From: Xenococcaceae cyanobacterium MO_167.B27
GTDB lineage: Bacteria > Cyanobacteriota > Cyanobacteriia > Cyanobacteriales > Xenococcaceae
Reading direction: 5' to 3'
Length of the DNA: 64,000 bases
Assembly: GCA_030065935.1 (NCBI GenBank)
Contig: JASJCP010000030.1
Span: forward strand, 1 to 64,000
The notes beneath the pieces were generated by a model. The model was not told where the DNA came from. It did no database searches and worked only from the letters and a program-made list of their open reading frames with translations. Below, piece after piece: positions 1,600-40,981 of this stretch (within the stretch, counting starts at the first letter, position 1; each line of letters opens with the position of its first letter). The translations under genes and the position numbers were made by a program.

Positions 1600-4500
1600 C
1601 TATTTTTCTAACACTGTTGGGTTTGACGACATAAAAGCTTTAATTCTTTCTGTTTCTAATAACTTCTGAGTGTCTGCTAGTAGTTTTTCGCCCCAGAGAT
1701 TGTCTTTGAGAAATTCTACATTCGCTAATCGTTTTTCCTGTCTTAGAGCTAGTTCTGCGAATTCTAATCCCTCTTCCTGCTCGCCCTCAGTATATAAAAC
1801 AACTGCGAAGGCTAGCAATGGTTCTGCGCTCTCAATTATAAGCCTAAATTCTTCCTTCTCTATGTTTGAGATTTGGACTGCTTGGTATAACATATCTTTA
1901 CCTTCTTTAGTTTTTTGTTGGAGTAATTCTTGATATTCTTGTTGGAGTAATTCCAGTTTATTGGCGTTAATTATTATCGCTTCACGCCATTGCTCAAAAG
2001 CTTCCTCCTTATCTCCAATTTCATAGTTAATTAAACCAATGTTATTTAGTACTAACAATAATTTATTATCTATAGCAAGTGCTTGATTGTAATCCGCTAA
2101 AGCTTTTGGATAATCTTTCAATTTATGATAAATAGTTCCTCTATATCCGTAGATATAGGCCGTTTTAGGTTTAAGCTTAATAGCTTGGTTTAAATCATCT
2201 AAAGCCTTATTGTAGTCTTCTAAAAAAAAGTAAGCTTGAGATCGACTTATGTAAGCATCGAAACTATTAGGCTTAAGTTCAATAACTCGGCTAAAAGCAG
2301 CAATTTCTTCCTTTGCTTCATTTTTTTCTATCGATTTATCTTCTTGGTTAACTTTTGAAGGCTCAGTTTCATTTCCTTTACAAATATGTTTGTCGCTTTC
2401 AATGATATTAGAGTTATTCTCTATATAATCACGTACCCAATCACAACCTCTTATCATTAGTCGATCTATATCCAAACTCCAAAGTTTTATAGTTTGATCA
2501 ATGCTGCTAGAAACAAGAGTTTTTCCATCAGAATTGAAACTAACACTATTCACACTATCTTTATGTCCTATAAGAGTTTGAAGTAACTTACCTTTTAAGT
2601 TCCAGAGTTTAATTGTATTGTCATCACTACCAGAAGCAATTAGCTGGCCATTGGGGCTGAAACTGACACTATTCACAAAATTTGCATGCCCTCTAAGTTC
2701 GGCTATTGGTTCTCCATTTAAATTCCAAAGTTTAATTGTTTTGTTATTCTTAGCAGAAGCTATTACTTTTCCATCAGGGCTAAAAAAGAACTTATCACCC
2801 TCAATGGTAGTTATTTGCTCTCCATTTAAATTCCAAAGTTTAATTGTTCCGTCATTATTAGCAGAAGCAATTATGTTTCCATCGGGACTGAAACCTGCGT
2901 TATATCCTTTAAGAGTAATAAGCAATTTTCCGTTTAAACTCCAAAGCTTAACTTTATTGTCATAGCCAACAGAAATAATATTCTGTCCATCGGCACTAAA
3001 ACTAATACTTCGTAAAGTCCCTGTATGTCCTACAAGAGTAGTGATTAATTTTTCTTGTTCTAAGTTCCAGATTTTAATAGTATTGTTATTACTGACAAAA
3101 GCTATTGTTTTACTGTCAGCACTAAAACTAAATGTCTTCTTATTAATAAGATTCAAAAGTTTCCACAAACTGAGACTAGTTCCATCACTAGCAAGCTCAT
3201 AACGCTTTTTCCTACTTAAGTTAGGGACTCTATAATCTTCGAGAATTTGGAGTAATTCACCCTGTAAATTCCAGAGTTTTACGGTATTGTCATAACTAAC
3301 AGAAACAATAATCTGTCCATCGGGACTAAAACCGATATCAATAACTTTGCTTGTATGTCCTCTAAGCGTTTGAAGTAACTCACCCTTCAAGTTCCAGAGT
3401 TTAATTTTGTCCCCTTTGCTAACTGAGACAATCATTTCTCCATTAGGGTTCAAACTGAAATTATTGCCATCCACTATGTTAGTTTGAAGAAAAAGCAACA
3501 GTGGTTTTTTTAGATTCCAAAGCTTAACGGTATTGTCACTACTAGCAGAAGCAATAATCTGCCCATCTGGACTGAAACTAACGCTACTAACCATAGCTTC
3601 ATGCCCTGTCAAAGTTTGGTCTAACTCTCCCTTTAAGTTCCAGAGTTTAACGGTATTGTCACCACTACCAGAAGCAATCATCTGTCCATCGGGACTGAAA
3701 CTAACGCTACTAACCATAGCTTCATGCCCTGCAAAAGTTTGGAGTAACTCTCCCTTTAAGTTCCAGAGTTTGATTGTATTGTCATTACTACCAGAAGCAA
3801 TCATCTGCCCATTGGGACTGAAACTAACGCTACTAACCCTAGCTTCATGCCCTGCAAAAGTTTGGAGTAACTCTCCCTTTAAGTTCCAGAGTTTGACTGT
3901 ATGATCATTACTACCAGAAGCAATCATCTGCCCATTGGGACTGAAACTAACACTACTAACCGGAAATTCATGCCCTGCAAAAGTTTGGAGTAATTCTCCC
4001 TTTAAGTTCCAGAGTTTGACTGTATGATCAGCACTACCAGAAGCAATCATCTGCCCATCGGGACTGAAACTAACACTACTAACCGAAGCTTCATGCCCTG
4101 CAAAAGTTTGGAGTAACTCTCCCTTTAAGTTCCAGAGTTTGACTATATGATCATTACTACTAGAAGCAATCATCTGCACATTGGGACTGAAACTGACAGT
4201 ATCCACATGATCTCTATGTCCTGTAAAAGTTTGAAGCAACTCACCTTTTAAGTTCCAAAGTTTGATAGTGTTATCATAGCTAGCAGAAGCAATTATCTGC
4301 CCATCGGGACTAAAACTGACATCCCAGACCAAATCTTGATGACCTGAAAACCTATTAAACTCTCTAACCCTATAGAATGAATTTTGTAGCGCACTAATAA
4401 CTTGAATTCGAGTCTCAAAATCAACTCCAAAAGTATTTTGTGCCTTTTTCCCAGCCCTCAGACTTGCCATCAAAGCTTCAAACTCTTGATTTGATACTAA

Positions 4501-6135
4501 GTATGTTTCTACCGATGCCGTAATGGTGTTAATCTCTTCAATTAATGCTTTTTGCCATTGTCGCAAAGCTAATCCAGTCAAGCCCAAGGCTACTATCAAA
4601 CCACCAGTAAGCCAAGAAATAATTTGTAGTTGTCGACGTTTCTCCTTCTTTTTTTCCTTATCTCTGAATGCTGAACTTTGCCGAATAAAATTTCGTTCAG
4701 CTTGACTTAGTTCTTCTCCTCGTTTTTTCTGCCACTCTTCTGCTTCTAGCAATAGTAAGCCTCGCAATAATGCCCCTTCATCATGCTTCGCATTTTCCCA
4801 TTGATGCAAAACTACTCTTAGTTGCTCTTGCCAAACCCGAAAACTGCGGTCTGTTTCCATCCATTGTCGTAGTTCACCCCAATTCCGAATCAGCGCTTCA
4901 TGGACAACCTCTACTGTTTCTTGATCCGCAGGATTACGACTAGTAACCACTAATCGCGCATCCGCCAACTTTTTGATCAATCCCCAGCTTTCTTCACCCA
5001 ATTCCGCTTTAATTGCCAGTCGTCGCGTATCCTCCGTTCCTTCCCCCGGACGCACCAATTGGATAAAAATATGGTGTACTTGCTGTTGCTCAACCAAACT
5101 CAACTTGCCATAACTCTCATCTGCATGACGAGCAAGGGCACCTTGTACCTCACCAATTGCCTCATAAGCTGCATGAGTTAATTGTTTGCCCGTTCGCCGT
5201 TTCCACAACTCCGTCAAAGCAAACTCCAACAGAGGCAAATTACCCGGCTCATCTTCCACATCATCCAAAATGCGTTCCACCAGTCCCTCTTGAAAAGTCA
5301 CCCCCAACTTCTGAGCAGGCTTGACAATTACCTGCTCAAGTTCAGAGTGGTTCATCGACCGGATTTTGACATCGGCGTATCGCAATAAATCCCCAAACGG
5401 AGGATAGGAGAGGGCATTTCCCAAGAAATCCACCCGCATGGTTGCAACTAGCACATTAGGAGATTGGGATTGAGAAGGAGAGGATTGAAAGCTGGCTAAT
5501 AAAGTATCTAGGAAACTACGGCGAATTTTCTGATCCCCACACAAAGTATAAAGTTCTTCAAACTGGTCAGCAATCAACAATACCCGCTCCGTGGGGTGGT
5601 TTTGGTGAATCTGAGCAAATACATCAGCCAGAGGAACAGTACCTTCACAAAAGTAACCTGCTAATTGACGAGCTTGAGCTATCCGTTCAGTAGCATTCAA
5701 ATCGGGAGTATAAAGGGGAACTAGCGCCAAAGCCAGAGCATGGAAAGGGTCGGAACCGGGACGGAAGTGAGTAAACAGCCAGTGACCTGCTTGTTGCAGT
5801 TTGGGCACCAGTCCCGCCAGAACTACTGAAGATTTACCACTTCCCGACGCACCCAAAACGGTTATAAAATTAAGGGTTTGAGTCGCAGCAAATAGTTCTT
5901 CGACAAATACCTCACGCCCAAAGAAAACCTCAGCATCATCGGGACCAAAATGAAACAAACCCCGATAAGGACAAGGGAGTTTTTCCTCAGCAGCAGTTTC
6001 TTCAGACTCGACTGGTTTACCCCTTACATCTTCCCTATAGTAGAAGTAATTGTAGACAATGTTTTTTTCGCCAACTACAGCACTCTTTACTTCATCTTCA
6101 AACGTTGGATTGTATTTGGGACGATCTTCAGCCAT
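1600..6135 (-). CDS. nSTAND NTPase-WD40-TPR receptor (NLR-like) with N-terminal amyloid motif
   Basis: A 1511-residue signal-transduction ATPase. Residues 16-31 ([16 protein letters not shown]) resemble a RHIM/BASS amyloid-signalling motif. A novel-STAND NTPase follows from about residue 54, with Walker A GASGSGKS (95-102) and Walker [11 protein letters not shown] (185-193). One hydrophobic helix near 505-525 is followed by about 15 WD40 repeats (roughly 590-1235), several nearly identical, and by TPRs near 1290-1400. The gene lies 19 bp downstream of the small Bell-like gene, whose C-terminus carries a matching motif, so the two form an operon. By analogy with NLRs, the WD40/TPR part probably senses a ligand, the NTPase oligomerises and the N-terminal motif seeds the partner. 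The architecture is clear; the immune role is inferred. Confidence 0.9.
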
Positions 6136-6154
6136 CTAGACACTCCAGTGGCTT

Positions 6155-6523
6155 TTAGCCAAATTTATTCTCTTGTATGTTGCGATCTCCTACTTGAATT
6201 CCCTTAACTTCACCTTGAAAAACCACATTGTACTTACCTGCTTTTGATTCTTCAGGTTTTAATTGTTTCAGCAATTCCTGAGCCGCCTTAATAATTTCCT
6301 CATCTTTATCAGCTCCAGCTTCAGCTAATTTCTTTTTCAGTGCTGCTTCATAGGTTTCAGGATCTGTTTCATGTTCTTCCAAAACCATTTCTGCTTTTGG
6401 ATCACCACTAAACTTACGTTTAATTAAAGTCTTCAAGCCATTGTAAGCATCTGGGGCTGCATCACCAGCAGCTTTTGCTGCTCCAGCAACTAGTGCAGCA
6501 ATAATAAGAGAAATAGGCTCCAT
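6155..6523 (-). CDS. Bell-like cell-death executor with C-terminal RHIM-like amyloid motif
   Basis: A 122-residue protein. The N-terminal 90 residues are helical, beginning with a hydrophobic segment (LIIAALVAGAA, residues 6-16) and followed by charged amphipathic helices, as in bacterial Bell domains, the analogues of fungal HeLo/HELL pore-forming domains. Residues 106-121 read VKGIQVGDRNIQENKF, a glutamine/asparagine/glycine motif of the BASS/RHIM kind. The receptor encoded next in the operon has a related motif (V-K-x3-V-G-[DE]-[RK]-N-I-x2-N-x-F is shared). The likely role is a membrane-disrupting effector triggered by amyloid templating from the receptor. Domain identity rests on pattern recognition and function is inferred. 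Confidence 0.82.
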   Translation of the reverse strand: MEPISLIIAALVAGAAKAAGDAAPDAYNGLKTLIKRKFSGDPKAEMVLEEHETDPETYEAALKKKLAEAGADKDEEIIKAAQELLKQLKPEESKAGKYNVVFQGEVKGIQVGDRNIQENKFG

Positions 6524-6832: not shown

Positions 6833-8365
6833 ATGATGGAAATTTCTGCTCTTATTTCTCAGATGCAACAGTCGGAGTTTTATCCCCATCCAGTAGCCGA
6901 CAATATCGAATTAGTACAGACTCATGTATCCTACGTCTTGTTGACAGGAGACTATGCTTATAAATTGAAAAAATCGGTAAACTTTGGCTTTCTCGACTAC
7001 TCCACTTTAGAAAAAAGAAAGCATTTTTTAGATGCAGAAATTTCCTTAAACAGTGCGATCGCACCAGAATTATATTTAGAAGTTCTACCCATTACCCAAG
7101 AGGGAGAAAAATTTATTTTAAATGGCTCAGGTGAACCTGTAGCTTATACTCTCAAAATGCGTCAGTTTCCTCAAGAAAATCTGTTTATTAATCTATTTGA
7201 TGCTGGCAAACTATCCATTGAAAAAATGGAAGAATTGGGTAAAATAGTAGCTGAATTTCATAAAAATGCCGTCACTAATGAATATATCAGTAGTTTTGGC
7301 AAAGTCGAAAAAATCCGCCAAGCATTTGATGAAAACTATGCTCAAACTCAAGGCTATATTGGAAGAGCGCAAACCCAAGAACAACTCACAGCCACTCAAG
7401 CTTATACAGATAACTTTTTTGCAGAACGAGAAGACTTATTTAATAGCAGAATAAACAATAATAAAATCAAAGAATGTCACGGAGATTTACACCTCAAAAA
7501 TATCTGTTTGTGGCAAGATAAAATTCAACTCTTTGATCGCATCGAATTTAACGAACCCTTCCGCTTTGTAGATGTGATCTACGATGTTGCTTTTGCCATG
7601 ATGGATTTAGAAGCAAAGGGAAAACAAGATTTTGCCAATGCTTTTCTTAATACTTATTTAGAAGAAACAGGAGACTGGGAAGGCTTACCCCTCTTACCTT
7701 TGTACCTCAGCAGACAAGCTTATGTGCGAGCCAAAGTAACATCTTTCCTCCTAGACGATCCTGCTATTCCTGAAACAGTTAAACAAGAAGCAAGTCAGAC
7801 TGCCACAAACTATTACAAACAAGCTTGGGAATATACCCAACGTAAGTCAGGAAAACTAATATTAATGTCTGGTTTATCAGGTTCTGGTAAAACCACCGTC
7901 GCTAAAACTATAGCAAGAAACACAGGTGCAATACATATTCGTTCTGATGCAGTTCGCAAACATATCGCAGGTATCGCTCTAGAAGCAACAGGAAGCGACA
8001 GTATATATACTCCCCAAATGAATCAAAAAACTTATGACCGTTTATTAGAATTGGGTGTGATGTTGGTACAAGAAGGCTTTACCGTAATTCTCGATGCTAA
8101 GTATGATCGCATTGATTACCGTCACAAAGTTATAGATGCTATCAAGTTACACAATATTTCCTTACAGATTATACATTGCACCGCACCCCTAGAAGTATTA
8201 CGCGATCGCCTGAATCAACGTAGTGGTGACATTTCCGATGCTACTGCTGACTTACTCACTACTCAACAAGCAAAAGCGGAAGCTTTTACCCAAGAGGAAC
8301 AAGTTTATGTCACTACAATAGATACTTCTAATACAGATTGGAAATCATTGAAAGCTATTAGCTAG
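6833..8365 (+). CDS. Bifunctional APH-like kinase / P-loop kinase fusion
   Basis: A 510-residue protein with an N-terminal aminoglycoside-phosphotransferase-like domain and a C-terminal AAA_33/zeta-type P-loop kinase. Seen directly: HGDLHLKNI at residue 216 onward (catalytic loop of the APH fold), FDRIEFNEPFRFVDVIYD (metal-binding segment) and Walker A GLSGSGKT at 347-354. This fusion is widespread in cyanobacteria and proteobacteria and is usually annotated as phosphotransferase/ATP-binding protein. The substrate is unknown, and antibiotic resistance should not be assumed. Two adjacent ATG codons can serve as start, and the first is used here. Confidence 0.88.
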   Translation: MMEISALISQMQQSEFYPHPVADNIELVQTHVSYVLLTGDYAYKLKKSVNFGFLDYSTLEKRKHFLDAEISLNSAIAPELYLEVLPITQEGEKFILNGSGEPVAYTLKMRQFPQENLFINLFDAGKLSIEKMEELGKIVAEFHKNAVTNEYISSFGKVEKIRQAFDENYAQTQGYIGRAQTQEQLTATQAYTDNFFAEREDLFNSRINNNKIKECHGDLHLKNICLWQDKIQLFDRIEFNEPFRFVDVIYDVAFAMMDLEAKGKQDFANAFLNTYLEETGDWEGLPLLPLYLSRQAYVRAKVTSFLLDDPAIPETVKQEASQTATNYYKQAWEYTQRKSGKLILMSGLSGSGKTTVAKTIARNTGAIHIRSDAVRKHIAGIALEATGSDSIYTPQMNQKTYDRLLELGVMLVQEGFTVILDAKYDRIDYRHKVIDAIKLHNISLQIIHCTAPLEVLRDRLNQRSGDISDATADLLTTQQAKAEAFTQEEQVYVTTIDTSNTDWKSLKAIS

Positions 8366-30233: not shown

Positions 30234-33200
30234 TTAAAACCCACCACACTTAAAAGAATGTTGCCAAAAAGTTTGATAAATTGATTCAGGTGCATAGCTA
30301 ATCAGTTCTATATTACCCTTATCATTCAACATCCATCCTTTTGCTTCAACAATAGAAGTTTTCTTATTGTTTCTCTCAACATTAGAAATAGAGTTATTAG
30401 TTTCTACTTCCTCAGAGATAGCAACTAAACGTAAATCTTGCCAAACAGATTGACCCCTGAGACTTTGCTGAGGATTATCAGGGTATCCACCTTTCCCAAC
30501 AATCGCCATAACGTTTTCTCGATTTACAGGACAACTAGCAGTAATTAATTGGGTGGGATTAGTGATAGTATCTGGTAGTTGAGTCAGACCAAATTGTTTT
30601 TCCGTATCAGGATTGTTAATCTCAACAACACCATCTAAACCAAATTCGGAACTAGCATCAATATCGCTACTAGGGGAAGTAAAGATAACTTCTGTATCAA
30701 TATTAATATTACCTCCAGAACCCAAGACCGCATTAGCACGAATATCGCTATTATTAGCAGCTAAAACCACATCACTATCGATCGCGATATTACCACCACC
30801 ACCAGTACTATCTAAAACACTAGTGCTTACCAAACTATTATTTTGCAGTTGGATAAAATCTGTAGTGAGGTTGATATCTCCACCACCAGTTTGTTCAGAA
30901 GTAGCTGTAATTAAACCTTGATTAGATTGAATGCGATCGCTTTCTATATTAATATTACCAGCTTGACCTGTTCCTGTACTGTTAGTGGTAATTTTTCCTT
31001 GAGTAGAAATATCCAGCAAATTACTTGTGACAGATATTGTTCCTCCATCTCCTCCTGCAACAGTACCACTACTTACCATTGCACCAGTATTGAGGTTGAA
31101 ATTTTCTGTTGTAATCTGAATCGAACCTCCAGCCCCATTTCCCAGAGTTTCCGCCGTTATTTGACTCCCATTTGTTGCGGTAAGAGTATTACTATTTAGC
31201 ACAATATTGCCTCCACTACCAGCAAAAGTGGCAGCCGTAATACTAGCAGGAGTATCAGCATCTATTCCATCTAGTTCAATACTATTAGCATTAATCTCAA
31301 TATTTCCTGCCTCACCCAAACCAGGCGGTACATCAGCATTAGTAGTCAAGAAATTACTCCCACTAATAGTTGCGCCATCTTTAACAGTTAATTTATCCGT
31401 TGTTAAAGCTATATTCCCCCCGTCTCCATCACCAAACACTGCGCTAGAAAATAAACCGCTACTACCACCCCCTGCTTCAATAGCATTACCCATCAATTCG
31501 ATTGAGTCGGATGCTGTTACCATTAGATTACCTGCCGAGCCAGAGCCACCAGTACTAACAGCAATTTGCGCTCCTTCTGAGACTCTTAAATTGTCAGTAG
31601 TAATTGTCAAATTCCCACTATTGCCTGTTGCACCTGGAACAACCGATGCAAATATAGCAGTGGGACTATTTTCTCCAGTGGAAAATCCAGTTAAATCGAT
31701 TTCTTGGGCTTTAATGGTGATATTTCCCCCATTTCCAGAACCAAAGACACTAGAATTAATTTTTGTTCCATTAGTCAGGGTTAAGCTGTTAGTCTCAATA
31801 TTAATATCACCCCCAACCCCTGTAGCTTGGTTGTTGTCTATGGAAGCTGAAATTTGACTGGGATCTTCTAAAGAAGCAAGACCTTTTAATTCGATAGTAT
31901 TAGCCTTAATGTTGATATTTCCTGCTGTTCCCAAACCACTAACTGTAGAACCAATATCAGCCCCATTTGCGATCGCTAAATCACCTGTATCAATAGTTAA
32001 ATTACCCCCATCACCATCGGCAAAAGTATTACTAAATAAAGCACTAGGAGAACCATTGGGAGAAGTCCCATTGAGTTCAATCTCTTGTGCCTTAATATTA
32101 AAATCTCCTGCTTTACCACTACTTAGTGAAAGGGTAAAAGCTTGCGCCCCTCCCGCTACTAACAAGCTGTCTGTTTCTATATTAATATCACCCCCAACCC
32201 CTGTAGCTCCTGGCACAATAGGAGCAAAAAGACCACTAGGTCCAGCTAAGGGTGAACCCGAAATTAACTCTACTTGCTCCGCGTTGACACTTAAAGTTCC
32301 TCCCTCTCCACTGCCAAAAACGGCACTGGCTACTTGCGCGCCTCCTGCTACCAGTAAATAACTGGTGTCAATGGTTAAATCTGCTCCTGCACCTGTTGAA
32401 CCTGTTGTGGTATCTGTAGAAACATAGGTAACAAAAGGAATCTCGTTTTGAGAAACCCCTGTAATCATGACTGACTCTGCACCTTTGAGAGTAATACTTC
32501 CTGCTGTGCCATCTCCTGAAGTATTAGCAAGAATTGCCGAAGCATCAGCTAGAGCGATATTTTGTCCTCGAACATTCACCGTACCACTACTATTTCCACT
32601 TACTTCCACTGAAGCTGCATTAACCAAATCAATATCTTGAAAGCCAGCTACTTCTTGATAATCAAATGTCCAGATTCCATTATCATTAGCCAGTTTAACC
32701 AGCCCTTCTCTTACACCTCCTAATTCAATATGCCCTTCTGCTGCGGTGAGATTTCCCCCATCTAAAGCAATATTGCCCCCGACTAAAGCTATAGTATTTC
32801 CTGACTCAACTTGTAATCCAGAAGGACGAAAGTTTTTAATCAGAGAAAAATCATTAGCACTAGGGTCAGCAAAACCAGTATTATTACCAATCCCTTGAAC
32901 TAAAATATTGCCAGCATCATCACCATATTGCAGACCGATAGGAATATTAATTGTTAGTAAAGGCGGAGCTTGAGGATCAACTGCACTATAAAAACTCCCA
33001 TCACTAAATTGAATACTGTTTGCTGTACTACCAATAAAAGAACCACCAATATTAAGAGTCGCATTCTCACCGAATATAATTCCGTTGGGGTTAATTAAGA
33101 AGAGATTAGCTGCACCATTAGCCCGAATTATCCCTTCAATATTGGAAACTGAACCACCAGTGACACGACTAAAAATATTTTCAATAGTCAATCCATTATC

Positions 33201-33467
33201 AAAAAAAGCTGTTTGACCATTGAGAACCGAAAATTCCTGAAAACTATGAAATAGATTATTGCCTACTGTTGTTCCCTCTGTAATCTGGATGATATCTGCA
33301 TTAGGAATCACCACAGAGTTATTGGGCAATGTAGCATCTGGTGTTATTTGTGCCGTAGCCTTTAAGCTATTAGCTAAACACAAAAAATATATTACACATA
33401 AAGCCAATCCCTTGGGGTTTCGTCTTGTTTCCAACTGTCGCAACAACAAATTAATAGGACTCAGCAT
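30234..33467 (-). CDS. Filamentous-haemagglutinin-type two-partner-secretion exoprotein
   Basis: A 1077-residue secreted TpsA-like protein. A long signal peptide (GLALCVIYFLCLANSLKATAQ) precedes the TPS domain (about 40-290), with its conserved FLINPNGIIFGENATLNIGG. The body (300-960) is a right-handed beta-helix built from repeats such as GAGGDINIETDSLLVAGGA. The C-terminal section includes two cysteines, SCPVNRE and a final FKCGGF. No TpsB/ShlB transporter gene is near, so its exporter is elsewhere. Probable roles are adhesion or an outer surface layer. It is a single-gene unit. Confidence 0.92.
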   Translation of the reverse strand: MLSPINLLLRQLETRRNPKGLALCVIYFLCLANSLKATAQITPDATLPNNSVVIPNADIIQITEGTTVGNNLFHSFQEFSVLNGQTAFFDNGLTIENIFSRVTGGSVSNIEGIIRANGAANLFLINPNGIIFGENATLNIGGSFIGSTANSIQFSDGSFYSAVDPQAPPLLTINIPIGLQYGDDAGNILVQGIGNNTGFADPSANDFSLIKNFRPSGLQVESGNTIALVGGNIALDGGNLTAAEGHIELGGVREGLVKLANDNGIWTFDYQEVAGFQDIDLVNAASVEVSGNSSGTVNVRGQNIALADASAILANTSGDGTAGSITLKGAESVMITGVSQNEIPFVTYVSTDTTTGSTGAGADLTIDTSYLLVAGGAQVASAVFGSGEGGTLSVNAEQVELISGSPLAGPSGLFAPIVPGATGVGGDINIETDSLLVAGGAQAFTLSLSSGKAGDFNIKAQEIELNGTSPNGSPSALFSNTFADGDGGNLTIDTGDLAIANGADIGSTVSGLGTAGNINIKANTIELKGLASLEDPSQISASIDNNQATGVGGDINIETNSLTLTNGTKINSSVFGSGNGGNITIKAQEIDLTGFSTGENSPTAIFASVVPGATGNSGNLTITTDNLRVSEGAQIAVSTGGSGSAGNLMVTASDSIELMGNAIEAGGGSSGLFSSAVFGDGDGGNIALTTDKLTVKDGATISGSNFLTTNADVPPGLGEAGNIEINANSIELDGIDADTPASITAATFAGSGGNIVLNSNTLTATNGSQITAETLGNGAGGSIQITTENFNLNTGAMVSSGTVAGGDGGTISVTSNLLDISTQGKITTNSTGTGQAGNINIESDRIQSNQGLITATSEQTGGGDINLTTDFIQLQNNSLVSTSVLDSTGGGGNIAIDSDVVLAANNSDIRANAVLGSGGNINIDTEVIFTSPSSDIDASSEFGLDGVVEINNPDTEKQFGLTQLPDTITNPTQLITASCPVNRENVMAIVGKGGYPDNPQQSLRGQSVWQDLRLVAISEEVETNNSISNVERNNKKTSIVEAKGWMLNDKGNIELISYAPESIYQTFWQHSFKCGGF

Positions 33468-36640: not shown

Positions 36641-39600
36641 ATGGTCAAGATTAATTTTATTTACACCTCTGATGTCAGTGTCGAACAAATGATTGGTTAT
36701 GAGATGGCAGCAATCATTTGGGGTAAATTATTTACTGACGATATCGATGTCAATATTCTAGCAAAAACTACCAACGAGCTAGACTCCAACGTTATCGGTG
36801 GGGCAATTCCTGAATTTCACGAACAACACTACGCCTTATTTCTTCAATATTTTGAAGCAGATATCACCTCAGCAGAAGACCAAATAGCTTACGATGCTCT
36901 ACAACAAGGCAATACGGTTGATTTTCTTCTCAATGGAGACTTAGTCAGTGGCAATACTAAACTCAAATTGACCACTGCTTTAGCTAAAGCTCTAGGGATG
37001 GACGAAGCCATTAGTCTTGATCGCTACATCCTAGACGAAGAGACTCACTTCCTCGATGGTACTATTATGATGAACCAGAATTTTGCCTGGGACTTCAACT
37101 ATCTACGGGACAGTGCAGCAGCAGAAAATACCCTAGATTTCTTGAGTGTCGCTCTCCACGAAACAGGACATATTTTAGGTTTTACCAGCAGTTTAGACTT
37201 CGCCCTTCAACAAGATACTCTCTATTCTGGTCGTACAGAGTTAAGTAATTTTAGTCCTCTGGACTTATTCCGTTTCTCCGCAGAAAGTTTAGCTCAAAAT
37301 AACCCTGATGGTACTGTTAATGACTTATCCATTGGAGGAGTAACTTGGTTTTCTACCGATGGTGGAGAAACCCTCAGTGCCAAGATGTCCACAGGAAAAG
37401 AAGGAGATGGTTATCAAGCTAGTCACTGGGAAAGACGCTATGACCCATTAGGCATTATGGATCCCACTCTCTGGTATCAAGAGCGAGCATCCATTACTGA
37501 TTTGGATGTGTTGGCTTTTGATATTATGGGCTATGACTTAAGCCAAAATGCTGGTGACGTAGAACAGTTATTTACCACCGAAGGATTAGAACTATTACTA
37601 GCAGAAGCTAAACTCCAATTAGCGAATAAGCTTGATGTTTCTGTTCAGTGGTTAGAAGATAATTCAAATGTACCAATATCTTCTTTGGACTTGATAGGAC
37701 AGATAGAAGCAGCAATGGCAGAAGCTGCACTCGCTCCCACAGAAACTACTCCAGAAACTACTCCAGAATCTAGCTCCACAGAACCTACTCCAGAAACTAG
37801 CACCACAAACGACTTCATCAAAGATTTAGGTGACATGATGAAGGAAATCTCTAAATGGTGGTCGAAGAATAATGATCAAAATAATAATGATCAAAATAAT
37901 GGTGAAAATGACAACCAGGGTTCTTCCTCGCAAGAATTCTATGAATGGTGGTCACAAAATAACCAAGGACATGGTTCTTCCTGGCAAGAACTCTATGAAT
38001 GGTGGGCGCAAAATAACCAAGGACATGGTTCTTCCTGGCAAGAACTCTATGAATGGGGGGCGCAAAATAACCAAGGACATGGTTCTTGGTGGCAAGAACT
38101 TTACGAATGGTGGGCGCAAGATAACCAAGGACATGGTTCTTGGTGGCAAGAGGTATTCTTCGCTAGTAAAGGTGAAGTTGCTTTAGAAAATATCGAATTG
38201 CCAGGAGAGAAAAGCAACCCAGTTGATAATACTTATAAAGAAATTGCTGGTGGCAGTCAAGATGACATCATTGGCGGAGATATCACCAATGATAAAATTA
38301 TCGCTGGTGACGGGGATGACCTCATTGATGGTGCTGGTGGAGATGACACTATTGCTGCTGGTGATGGTTACGATACTATCTTTGGTTTTGATGGTAATGA
38401 TTCCATCATGGGTGAAGAAGGGGATGATTTAATTTCAGGAGAATCTGATAATGACGTTCTCTTGGGACAAGATGGTTCTGATGTTCTCTTTGGTGGAGAC
38501 CACGATGATTATCTAGATGGAGGAGCAGGTAGGGACTTTCTCAATGGTAATACAGGACACGATGTTTTAGTAGGAAGGGCGGGGAATGACGCTCTAGAAG
38601 GAGAAGCTGGTAAAGACCTCTTAATTGGAGGTGCAGGTCAAGATATTGGTAATGGCGGTAGTGGCAATGATTTTATCTTCGGGGATGAGTATTCTGCAAG
38701 TTTACAACAAGCCTTTGGCAATAATTTAAGTCCTCTAATCAATCTCTTTACTCCTACTACTGAAACTACCACTACAGAAACTTCTACTACTGAAGAAGTC
38801 ATTACGGTCGAGCTTGGGCAAGACCCAGTAAGAGTTGAAGCAGAAAATATGACCTTGTCTGGGAACTATAGCCTAGCTTCTGGTGGGACTCTAGTTCAGA
38901 CTAATTCTACGGCTAGTATTAGTACCTTGTTTAATGGAGAAGCAGGACTTTACAACATTGTTATCGGCTACCACGATGTTTATGGTAATGCTAGAATCAC
39001 AGCCTCTTTAGGAGCAAGTACCATAGATGACTGGTATCTAAATCAATCTTCAGGAAGTACATCTCCCAGTGGTTCAAACTTTAACACCAGAACTATTGCT
39101 AGTGAAGTTAGTCTCAATGGTGGTGAGTCTCTAGTTCTAGATACAGTTGTTTACGCAACTAGTAGTGGCGATGATGACGATGATGGTGGTGTTGTATATG
39201 ATAAGGGTTACATCGACTATGTTGAGTTTGTTCCCATCGTTGATAATACTAATAATGTAGTTCTAGAGCCAGACCCTACTACTACTGATTCAACTAATAC
39301 TGATACTTCTAATACTACTGATTCAACTAATACTGATACATCTAATACCCTACCTTCTGGAGTAGCACTAGGAGCAAATAGCGACATCCTCAGAGGTGGT
39401 AATGGTAATGATGGTATTGATGGTGGTGAAGGTAACGATGTTATTTTCGGAGAAGATGAGTTAAATGATTCAAGTAATATTGCTCCGATTAATATTGCTG
39501 GTAGTTTTAACTACGGTCGGAGTACTTATATATTAAGTCAGGCTGGTAGTTGGCAAGAAGCACAAGCTGAAGCTGAAAGTTATGGCGGTAATTTGGTCAC

Positions 39601-40981
39601 AATCAACGATGCTGCGGAAAACCAATGGCTGAAAGATACCTTTGGTACAACAGAGGCTCTCTTTATTGGTTTCTCTGATGCGGAAACCGAAGGAACCTGG
39701 AAATGGTCTAGCGGTCAAGTTGTAGACTGGGTTCTCAGTAACAGCGGTGATGCTATTTATACTGATTGGGCTCCTAACCAACCAGATGATTATCAAGGAG
39801 ATCAAGACTACGCTATCTTGAGTCATATCTGGGATCCAAATACGGATAAATGGGATGATGTAACCTTAAAGTATTCATCTTTCCGAGGCATCATTGAGAT
39901 TGACTGGTCTAGTGTTGGTGGTAATGACACTATCATTGGTGGTGCAGGAGATGACCAAATTTACGGTAACTCTGGTAACGATTTAATCTACGGTGATGAT
40001 ATAAATATTGGTGATGATATAAATATTGTCAAAACTCTTCAAACCTTAACCTTCCAGCAAGGAATTAATGGCTACAACGGCACGGTTGATACTCAACTTA
40101 ATGGATACAATTCGAATACAAGTTATGGTAGTGCAACTTCCCTCAATATAGATAATGATGACTTGGGATCTCCCGCTCAGACTTTGATTCGCTTTGAAGA
40201 TATCTTTGGCAGTCAAGCAGGTCAAATTGCTGTAGATGAAAACATCGAATCTGCATTCCTGGAAATTAATGTTTCTAACCCAGGTAATAGTTTTAAGGTT
40301 TACGAACTCCTACAAAACTGGTCAGACACTAGTACTTGGAACTCTTGGGGTAATGGAATTCAAACTAACGGTGTGGAAGCAGCAAGTACATCAATTGCCA
40401 CTACTGACTGGGTAAATACAGGTATTCTAAGAATTGATGTAACAGCAAGTTTGCAAGCTTGGCAAGCAGACCCCACAACTAATTATGGATGGGCTTTCTT
40501 ATCCACAGGTATTGATGGGATTGATTTTGACTCTGCCGAAGGGATTAACGCTCCTCGCTTGGTAGTCAATGTTAATCAAGCTTCATCTAGTTCTGGAGCA
40601 GGTAATGATATCATTACTGGAAATGGTGGTAATGATACTATCTCTGGTGGTGCTGGTGACGACATTATCAATGGTACTGATGAAATAGTTGCTGGCTACT
40701 ATGAAAAAGATGTCTTAATCGGTGGTGCTGGTGCAGACAAGTTTATCTTAGGAAATGCTAACCAAGCCTACTACGCTACTGCTGGCAATCAAGATTACGC
40801 ACTGATTGAAGACTTTGACTCAAATCTGGATACTCTACAACTTTATGGCTCTGCGGTCGATTATCAACAACAGCAGCAAGGAAATGATGTTTTCCTCTCT
40901 CGCAATGGAGATTTGATAGTGATTCTAGAGAATACTAGTACTTTGAATCTCAATGGTAGTAGTTTTGAGTATGTGGTGTAA
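36641..40981 (+). CDS. Secreted RTX metalloprotease with CBM-like, C-type-lectin and DNRLRE domains
   Basis: A 1446-residue modular exoprotein. Residues 1-310 form a zinc metalloprotease with VALHETGHILGF (His173, Glu174, His177) and a Met-turn-like LGIMDPTLWY, like the NF038122 group. After a Thr/Pro/Glu linker come five 18-residue W-rich repeats (about 425-505), RTX calcium-binding nonapeptides (about 545-685), a carbohydrate-binding-module-like domain (721-867), a C-type-lectin-like domain (about 955-1085), a DNRLRE/CBM96-like domain (1130-1318) and a final RTX block. There is no Sec signal; the C-terminal RTX pattern indicates type I secretion. It probably processes or binds extracellular polymers. 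No T1SS genes are nearby. Confidence 0.9.
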   Translation: MVKINFIYTSDVSVEQMIGYEMAAIIWGKLFTDDIDVNILAKTTNELDSNVIGGAIPEFHEQHYALFLQYFEADITSAEDQIAYDALQQGNTVDFLLNGDLVSGNTKLKLTTALAKALGMDEAISLDRYILDEETHFLDGTIMMNQNFAWDFNYLRDSAAAENTLDFLSVALHETGHILGFTSSLDFALQQDTLYSGRTELSNFSPLDLFRFSAESLAQNNPDGTVNDLSIGGVTWFSTDGGETLSAKMSTGKEGDGYQASHWERRYDPLGIMDPTLWYQERASITDLDVLAFDIMGYDLSQNAGDVEQLFTTEGLELLLAEAKLQLANKLDVSVQWLEDNSNVPISSLDLIGQIEAAMAEAALAPTETTPETTPESSSTEPTPETSTTNDFIKDLGDMMKEISKWWSKNNDQNNNDQNNGENDNQGSSSQEFYEWWSQNNQGHGSSWQELYEWWAQNNQGHGSSWQELYEWGAQNNQGHGSWWQELYEWWAQDNQGHGSWWQEVFFASKGEVALENIELPGEKSNPVDNTYKEIAGGSQDDIIGGDITNDKIIAGDGDDLIDGAGGDDTIAAGDGYDTIFGFDGNDSIMGEEGDDLISGESDNDVLLGQDGSDVLFGGDHDDYLDGGAGRDFLNGNTGHDVLVGRAGNDALEGEAGKDLLIGGAGQDIGNGGSGNDFIFGDEYSASLQQAFGNNLSPLINLFTPTTETTTTETSTTEEVITVELGQDPVRVEAENMTLSGNYSLASGGTLVQTNSTASISTLFNGEAGLYNIVIGYHDVYGNARITASLGASTIDDWYLNQSSGSTSPSGSNFNTRTIASEVSLNGGESLVLDTVVYATSSGDDDDDGGVVYDKGYIDYVEFVPIVDNTNNVVLEPDPTTTDSTNTDTSNTTDSTNTDTSNTLPSGVALGANSDILRGGNGNDGIDGGEGNDVIFGEDELNDSSNIAPINIAGSFNYGRSTYILSQAGSWQEAQAEAESYGGNLVTINDAAENQWLKDTFGTTEALFIGFSDAETEGTWKWSSGQVVDWVLSNSGDAIYTDWAPNQPDDYQGDQDYAILSHIWDPNTDKWDDVTLKYSSFRGIIEIDWSSVGGNDTIIGGAGDDQIYGNSGNDLIYGDDINIGDDINIVKTLQTLTFQQGINGYNGTVDTQLNGYNSNTSYGSATSLNIDNDDLGSPAQTLIRFEDIFGSQAGQIAVDENIESAFLEINVSNPGNSFKVYELLQNWSDTSTWNSWGNGIQTNGVEAASTSIATTDWVNTGILRIDVTASLQAWQADPTTNYGWAFLSTGIDGIDFDSAEGINAPRLVVNVNQASSSSGAGNDIITGNGGNDTISGGAGDDIINGTDEIVAGYYEKDVLIGGAGADKFILGNANQAYYATAGNQDYALIEDFDSNLDTLQLYGSAVDYQQQQQGNDVFLSRNGDLIVILENTSTLNLNGSSFEYVV
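37912..38153 (+). repeat. 54-bp tandem coding repeats in the RTX protease gene
   Basis: Five near-identical units encode NQGHGSSWQELYEWWAQN with small changes (SS/SW, WW/WG). The first unit lacks two codons and the last is cut short. High identity at DNA level suggests recent expansion by slippage or recombination. The Trp/Glu-rich product is probably an extended or self-associating linker. Confidence 0.85.

Follow-up and report, generated by a model that had tools for sequence, protein, structure and literature searches.

The first 64,000 nucleotides of contig JASJCP010000030.1 from Xenococcaceae cyanobacterium MO_167.B27 (hereafter, the window) carry two adjacent genes on the minus strand, one for a small protein of 122 amino acids (aa) and one for an NLR-like receptor of 1511 aa. 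On the basis of sequence comparisons, we propose that these genes encode a Bell/NLR amyloid-signalling pair of the BASS3 type, in which the small protein is the effector and carries a RHIM-like motif at its C-terminus. We give this reading a probability of roughly 0.75. Systems of this kind are already known: the review PMC7889193 describes them and refers to Dyrka et al. 2020 as the primary source. The window pair would be a clean cyanobacterial member of this published kind.

The first-pass annotation of this DNA had claimed two adjacent open reading frames (ORFs) 19 bp apart, an nSTAND/WD40 receptor and a similar 16-residue segment in each protein. All of these were recovered (Table 1). The 122-aa ORF lies upstream and the receptor ORF follows it. 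Pfam finds nSTAND1 and WD40 repeats in the receptor, NCBIfam finds TPR-like matches besides, and both 16-residue segments fit V-K-x3-V-G-[DE]-[RK]-N-I-x2-N-x-F. The common block is longer than had been stated: effector aa 98-121 correspond to receptor aa 8-31, with 12 of the 24 residues identical, and the small-protein motif has one extra G after its end.

The motif match between effector and receptor is beyond chance. When the effector tail was compared with the N-terminus of its own receptor, the score was 59 (z = 11.1 against 300 residue shuffles). A search of receptor aa 1-62 against the six frames of the 7.02-Mb genome gave three matches at E<=10: the receptor itself came first, the effector C-terminus second (46% identity, E 0.154) and an unrelated place third (E 1.09). 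At the DNA level, 42 of 72 bases agree between the two motif copies, and 5 of the 12 identical residues are encoded by different codons. Therefore, the two copies are not a fresh DNA duplication. The effector is under purifying selection (nonsynonymous divergence, dN, 0.033; synonymous divergence, dS, 0.226; measured against the related locus L007), and G108, G112, N115, Q117 and N119 of its tail are invariant in 12 relatives. In the AlphaFold2 model of the full-length effector, aa 103-122 have a confidence score (pLDDT) below 50. The tail is conserved, yet in this model it is mostly without a predicted fold.

Matching of effector tails and receptors among relatives

A scan of genome contigs gave 23 related loci (21 cyanobacterial, one actinobacterial and one from Desulfobulbaceae). 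A Bell profile was built from 19 Bell domains and matched to genomes at a threshold of E<=0.001. In the phylum, 23 of 386 genomes had a match; in the order, 77 of 388; and in the phylum of the actinobacterium Couchioplanes (G669, locus L022), 6 of 396. The phylum and order scans together gave 81 genomes with a Bell match; 78 of these were examined and three were left out. A matched receptor adjoins the Bell gene in 57 of the 78 genomes.

For the pairing test, 21 loci that repeat places of the window's own genome (L026, L049 and L056-L074) were excluded beforehand. There were 138 Bell-match ORFs in 136 loci, and omission of three partial domains gave 135 rows. Fixed rules, described below, left 107 rows, and 88 remained once near-identical ones were removed. 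In these 88 pairs, the mean score of own tail against own receptor was 58.2, as compared with 25.7±1.4 after permutation (10,000 permutations, maximum 32.0); none of the 10,000 permutations was as high as the observed pairing. Tested singly against residue shuffles, 76 of the 88 pairs had p<=0.05. We also permuted 72 rows within clusters of the NTPase core (63.1 observed, 45.9 permuted) and 72 rows within Bell clusters (58.3 observed, 37.7 permuted), and in both cases 0 of 5000 permutations were as high. Therefore, the pairing match is not merely a by-product of common descent. The first-pass annotation had expected the pair to be conserved across genomes, and this test, together with the 57 genomes with a matched receptor, bears out that expectation.

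Clustering of the 76 matched pairs gave 12 classes of tails and 12 of receptors, which agree with an adjusted mutual information of 0.87 (best of 1000 permutations, 0.12). This figure is partly circular because the class clusterings used segments cut by mutual alignment; the permutation tests of the pairing described above are free of this. Other clustering cut-offs gave 14 and 15, or 9 and 12, classes of tails and receptors. The largest class is the RHIM-like class of the window, with 19 pairs. A single Bell scaffold is combined with about 12 motif classes, and in each class the receptor carries the corresponding motif.

The window's genome has a second Bell paralogue (C34), which is 82% identical to the window effector over aa 1-108 and 90% identical over the Bell domain. 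Its tail carries a different motif (QGFYGENLGTVHQ), and this motif is matched by the next gene (RGFYGENLGIVNQ), which encodes an nSTAND1 receptor. Because a second pair in the same genome bears a different motif class on a 90% identical Bell domain, specificity is directly testable. We rejected the idea that co-resident pairs avoid the same class: 0 of 14 shared a class, where about 2.1 were expected from the class frequencies (P about 0.10, not significant). The count was originally 1 of 15, with L044 and L054 of G095 being one locus counted twice. Exclusivity is not strict, for G667 has two Bell copies with equal scores in two places, and the two loci that correspond to them, L017 and L019, have the same tail.

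Several loci deviate from the simple two-gene layout. In the GDISGG class (L034, L106 and relatives), a 131-aa gene (MSITVEVELKDFLIQINQKLDNLQ...) lies between Bell and receptor, with a gap of 487 nt. L101 (G831, from the same phylum as the actinobacterium of L022) has a Bell protein with a RHIM-like tail, and the 215-aa gene that follows starts with the same motif. In L004 (5974-8592) and L110, Bell is fused in frame to a C-terminal WD40-type part, and in L050 it is fused in frame to the stretch after the NTPase; these fusions apparently arose by deletion of the receptor NTPase. In L150, a Bell domain is followed by pentapeptide-repeat-like sequence in one ORF, as judged by eye.

Other nSTAND1 genes were seen in the window's genome. 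L064 (C259) is a possible third motif pair, with a topology reversed relative to the Bell pairs: a 139-aa protein with an N-terminal motif (SFGDNASVGGDIVGG) and a hydrophobic C-terminal end is encoded 520 nt upstream of an nSTAND1 protein starting DFGDDATIDGDVIGG (3389-3808 and 1366-2868, both minus). Judged by eye, the nSTAND1 ORFs of C135, C59, C36 and C23 (L059, L061, L063 and L065) have an upstream caspase-like region, and in C24 (L066) a caspase-like/nSTAND1-type gene is split into separate ORFs.

Motif kinship, the Bell domain and competing explanations

We aligned 30 sequences, hand-picked from effector and receptor copies of the window's motif class; G15, N18 and N22 are invariant in this alignment. 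A profile made from it was compared with 177,635 PDB sequences and gave six matches at E<=10. The top four are RIPK3 (7dac, 12kl_A and 7da4) and 12kl_B, with E-values of 0.86-1.3 over 9-11 core residues, and the remaining two are acyltransferases (E about 7). The 12kl_B chain is the partner of RIPK3 in entry 12kl and is named ribonucleotide reductase large subunit-like protein; we take it to be a viral RHIM protein. Control profiles of two other motif classes (14 rows each, against 30) found nothing in PDB at E<=10. For the 30 class motifs, RHIM (PF12721) is the sole Pfam family listed at E<=10, with no HET-S, and it is matched by one member (E 4e-4). RHIM is not among the Pfam matches of the window proteins at E<=1, the best 25 of 84 being considered for the receptor.

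The published BASS3 peptide (PMC8086366, Table 2) corresponds to positions 103-123 of Frankia ORT49035.1 and is positive by Congo red and Fourier-transform infrared spectroscopy. Its score against the window effector motif was 60 (p=0.0005), and against the receptor motif it was weaker, 31 (p=0.001). For the tails of four other motif classes, the p-values were 0.34, 0.11, 0.18 and 0.047. Proline at two conserved glutamines, 7 residues apart, abolishes BASS3 foci (PMC9815663), and the window effector has two glutamines with this spacing (GIQVGDRNIQ). The first-pass annotation had looked to an alignment with known amyloid-signalling motifs. Such an alignment was obtained with the published BASS3 peptide, and RIPK3 was among the top PDB matches at E about 1. 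Judged from these comparisons, the motif class of the window is RHIM-like and probably belongs to the RHIM/BASS3 group.

The Bell domain, modelled by AlphaFold2 with 19 sequences, has five predicted helices and a mean pLDDT of 89.7. The first helix is hydrophobic; its top 19-residue hydropathy, starting from aa 4, is 1.62, which is borderline. Foldseek with this model gave 22 PDB chains at E<=10 and none at E<=0.001, and in a VIA comparison with 42 of the Foldseek chains, the best match had Z 4.3 (root-mean-square deviation 3.9, 64 aligned). HeLo and MLKL chains were absent from the Foldseek list, an absence that excludes nothing. The Bell profile had three matches among PDB sequences (E 0.31-0.35), none of them significant. 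In Pfam and NCBIfam, no match of the 122-aa protein exceeds the curated cut-off, and its best PADLOC match has an E-value of 0.04. Five of the 19 Bell domains are matched by Pfam HetE-N (PF20701), with 2.7e-4 as the lowest E-value, a result that points to a possible link to the N-terminal domains of fungal HET-E. In full-length L013, L012 and L025, HetE-N stays below the cut-off (best E 2.3e-4, 21.8 of 25 bits). PMC7889193 sees Bell proteins as death effectors and membrane attack as their action, in both cases as a hypothesis.

If the BASS3 reading is correct, the pair may act as follows. The WD40/TPR part would sense a trigger, and the nSTAND1 NTPase would oligomerise. The clustered N-terminal motifs of the receptors would form a cross-beta nucleus, and this nucleus would template the C-terminal motif of the effector. 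The clustered Bell domains would insert into the membrane and would kill or arrest the cell. The pairing, the conservation and the kinship of the motif rest on sequence; cross-beta templating, membrane damage, death and an anti-phage role are suggested by analogy with the families named here.

Several points weigh against the BASS3 reading. The receptor motif has valine at both BASS3 glutamine positions. The effector motif alone matches no Pfam family at E<=10, a phmmer search with the window tail alone found nothing in PDB at E<=10, and the PDB matches of the RHIM-class profile have E-values near 1. Membrane attack is proposed from one borderline hydrophobic helix in the model and from published conjecture. 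The partial circularity of the class figure, noted above, also belongs here. Furthermore, 28 of the 135 Bell rows were removed by the fixed rules before the pairing count: 20 lacked an ORF of 150 aa on the same strand in the next 900 nt (in some cases because a contig ended there), five had a tail longer than 80 residues (fused or long) and three had a tail shorter than 20. Five of the removed rows were inspected by eye. L033 has a match in an open frame missed by the ORF rule, L111 has a tail-like stretch that runs into a stop codon, the ORF of L151 is similar but short, L089 has just 126 bp downstream, and the fifth, L133, is described below. Finally, 12 of the 88 pairs were unmatched by the fixed test. 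Inspection by eye showed a match just past the 60-residue limit in L156, a relic of the receptor N-terminus in L009, an unrelated neighbour or no receptor in L123, L149, L053 and L100, no motif match in L046, L132, L153 and L157, and a receptor without the motif in L134 and L138, as likewise in L133, which had been removed earlier.

In L133, L134 and L138, the motif-less receptor starts I-Y-N-Y-Y and lies beside a Bell protein with an unrelated tail. These are possibly broken or re-routed pairs.

We considered other explanations of the matched motif. It could be a non-amyloid homotypic contact, for example a stoichiometric beta-strand or a clasp, that merely recruits the small protein to the receptor. 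Motif matching and the junction replacement described below require just a specific interaction, the receptor copy has neither of the two BASS3 glutamines, and the amyloid state of the pair is predicted only. However, the motif class is similar to RHIM and BASS3, for which amyloid or prion-like foci are described (PMC7889193, PMC9815663 and PMC8086366), and the tail is predicted to be unstructured as a monomer though it is conserved; we therefore consider a non-amyloid contact unlikely. Somewhat harder to sustain is the view that the small protein is not the executor but serves the receptor as a regulator, chaperone or inhibitor. Pfam, NCBIfam and PADLOC recognised no enzymatic domain in it, and its toxicity is presumed. 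Against this view, the receptor has no domain of its own between motif and NTPase, and some nSTAND1 proteins of the same genome have, by eye, caspase-like upstream regions. The hydrophobic N-terminal helix of the small protein is conserved, and the hypothesis of PMC7889193 that Bell is a death effector also speaks for an executor.

A third explanation is that the C-terminal half of the small protein is an effector-associated domain (EAD10) adaptor of the type of Kaur et al. Pfam gave a weak EAD10 (PF19954) match at aa 55-118 (E 0.015), but its 15.7 bits are under the cut-off of 24.1. When the tail was removed, EAD10 was absent at E<=1 for the window protein and for all 19 Bell domains, and the part common to the pair is a 24-residue motif; an EAD10 adaptor is thus very improbable. 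The similarity might also reflect descent from a local duplication or a gene fission without functional pairing, as the adjacency of the copies would allow. This is largely contradicted, and we consider it scarcely credible, by the base and codon differences between the copies, by the occurrence of about 12 motif classes, each on both sides, and by cases in which both sides differ together while the flanks are kept.

Replacement of the gene junction

To account for the distribution of motif classes, the Bell tree needs no fewer than 33 changes (shuffled mean, 50.5) and the NTPase-core tree no fewer than 22 (shuffled mean, 49.3), as compared with 11 if each class had a single origin; both are quick trees with many open forks. 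We compared locus pairs with a Bell identity of 0.5-0.85 and a core identity of 0.5-0.75. In 120 same-class locus pairs, the motif similarity was 0.70 for tails and 0.66 for receptors, and in 91 different-class locus pairs it was 0.22 and 0.23. L006 and L082 are 84% alike in Bell and 83% alike in the core, and their motif similarities are 0.14 and 0.13. In their DNA, the part that encodes effector aa 1-80 is 88-92% identical. Identity falls to 42-65% between effector aa 81 and about receptor aa 45, and it is 72-95% from there to the end of the compared sequence. In the same-class control, L006/L015, the junction itself is 80-95% identical, whereas effector aa 41-80 reach 53-63%. Therefore, recombination is not limited to the junction.

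L160 (RHIM class) and L158 (APVQ class) occupy a common site in two genomes, with one upstream and two downstream genes shared, and differ farther upstream. The left flank, which reaches to about effector aa 40, has 91.2% identity in 841 positions. The junctions, of 394 and 420 bp, are unmatched. On the right side, the identity is 93.6% over 2516 bp of the receptor and 86.8% over 1005 positions of the downstream block. At the protein level, 6 differences separate the receptors of these loci (also listed as L013 and L036) in the 240 positions of aa 61-300, where the numbering starts a few residues ahead of the start codon.

A scan of 76 loci found homologous DNA on both sides of an unmatched junction in 25 of 2459 different-class locus pairs, which involve 17 loci and 6 class combinations and are not independent events. 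In same-class locus pairs, a single DNA block runs through the junction in 166 of 391. The left limits lie near effector aa 39-49 in most loci, or near 91 or 110, and the right limits lie near receptor aa 25-56; the unmatched junctions are 257-946 bp long. L143/L146 is outside the 25, its right flank being 69.4% identical where the limit is 70%. A finer 2x2 test for a change on one side gave, at its loosest setting, 22 of 217 locus pairs whose tails differ yet cross-match, and 5 of 217 for the reverse. We rejected this test as proof, because the examples (12 of the 22 and all 5) are divergent class members, neighbouring classes or matches outside the compared stretch.

The replaced segment of L160 matches L015 as one piece (82% over 398 bp). 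That of L006 is likewise matched in one piece, by L015 (88.8% over 259 bp) and by the window (80.6% over 237 bp). These one-piece segments are consistent with a single exchange. On the other side, the replaced segments of L158 and L159 match relatives in halves only: the effector half of L158 matches L090 (88.7% over 213 bp), and the two halves of L159 match L024 and L107. Therefore, more than one event is possible, and this lowers the probability of exchange as a unit.

In these alignments, the junction looks like a specificity cassette that can be exchanged. For the window itself, its limits are deduced from relatives (L006 against L082/L159 and others; Table 1). Recombination at the junction could give both partners a new specificity at the same time, perhaps through one event. 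In addition, the gene order itself may be functional: adjacent motif copies in one stretch of about 250-550 bp (with a third gene between them, as much as about 950 bp) may recombine as a unit and re-address one conserved executor scaffold to a new channel in a single event, with the match preserved. We regard the chances for and against this idea as evenly balanced. If it is true, unit exchange would explain the clustering of such pairs and the abundance of motif classes. The replaced junctions (L013/L036 and L006/L082, and L143/L146 with a weaker right flank) are natural swap experiments. Among the literature matches listed in our searches, which did not extend to Dyrka et al. 2020, no title and no opening lines of an abstract mention an exchange of the junction in bacteria.

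Features of the locus and comparison with known systems

Table 1. Coordinates of the pair and its parts within the window.
Feature	Positions	Strand	Basis
Small executor-side protein (Bell-like domain and C-terminal motif), 122 aa	6155-6523	minus	ORF and relatives
Bell-like helical domain, effector aa 1-97 (predicted), hydrophobic helix aa 3-20	6233-6523	minus	AlphaFold2 and hydropathy
Effector-side RHIM/BASS3-like motif, aa 98-121	6161-6232	minus	Sequence comparisons
Intergenic gap between effector and receptor, 19 nt	6136-6154	minus	ORF ends
NLR-like receptor, 1511 aa	1600-6135	minus	ORF, Pfam nSTAND1 and WD40, NCBIfam TPR-like
Receptor-side motif, aa 8-31	6043-6114	minus	Sequence comparisons
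nSTAND1 NTPase domain, receptor aa 56-453	4777-5970	minus	Pfam E 3e-118
WD40 repeat region (presumed sensor), about aa 594-1254, approximate limits	2374-4356	minus	Pfam
TPR-like region, about aa 1270-1450, approximate limits	1786-2328	minus	NCBIfam
Putative exchangeable cassette, effector about aa 91 to receptor aa 45, both motif copies	6001-6253	minus	Relatives only

Near the 3' end of the receptor gene, there is a DDE_5 transposase (18-1280, minus). Divergently from the effector gene, a protein with a C-terminal AAA_33/zeta-toxin-like kinase domain is encoded (6833-8365, plus). The window also encodes a 1077-aa TPS-domain protein (30234-33467, minus) and a 1446-aa protein that combines RTX repeats with a C-type lectin domain (36641-40981, plus).

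The first-pass annotation had assigned the pair to the arrangement of BASS systems, and this holds: the same motif is at the C-terminus of the small protein and at the N-terminus of the adjacent NLR, which has a STAND NTPase and repeats. Like the BASS3 Bell/NLR pairs (PMC7889193, PMC8086366, PMC9815663 and PMC12261475), the window pair combines a small, predicted-helical protein that has a C-terminal RHIM-like motif with an adjacent NLR that has an N-terminal motif, and its effector motif can be aligned with the BASS3 peptide that was tested from Frankia. It differs in that the receptor copy is without both conserved glutamines, and junction replacement is not described in the available parts of these four papers.

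The same annotation had likened the pair to fungal HET-S/NWD2. This stands for the layout of the gene pair and fails for the motif. As in HET-S/NWD2 and HELLP/PNT1, a motif is shared between the C-terminus of a presumed membrane-targeting executor and the N-terminus of an NLR encoded beside it. In contrast to the doubled HET-S repeat of the fungal system, the window motif is of the RHIM/BASS3 type and is present in one copy per protein; two HET-S repeats were not found in the 122-aa protein. The relation of the executor domains is disputed: PMC7889193 states that Bell and HeLo have no detectable sequence homology, whereas PMC9815663 calls Bell a HeLo homologue.

In the STAND and ternary conflict systems of multicellular bacteria, the EAD adaptors (Kaur et al. 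2021, PMC8195603) are also short and are thought to join sensor and effector homotypically. Unlike these adaptors, as far as the consulted part of that paper describes them, the common part of the window pair is a motif of 24 residues. As for the metazoan RHIM of the RIPK3 necrosome, the window core K-G-x-Q-V-G-D-x-N aligns with S-G-V-Q-V-G-D-N-N of RIPK3, although the protein architectures are different and the E-values are weak. RHIM-like amyloid signalling would connect mammalian necroptosis, fungal incompatibility and bacterial cell death.

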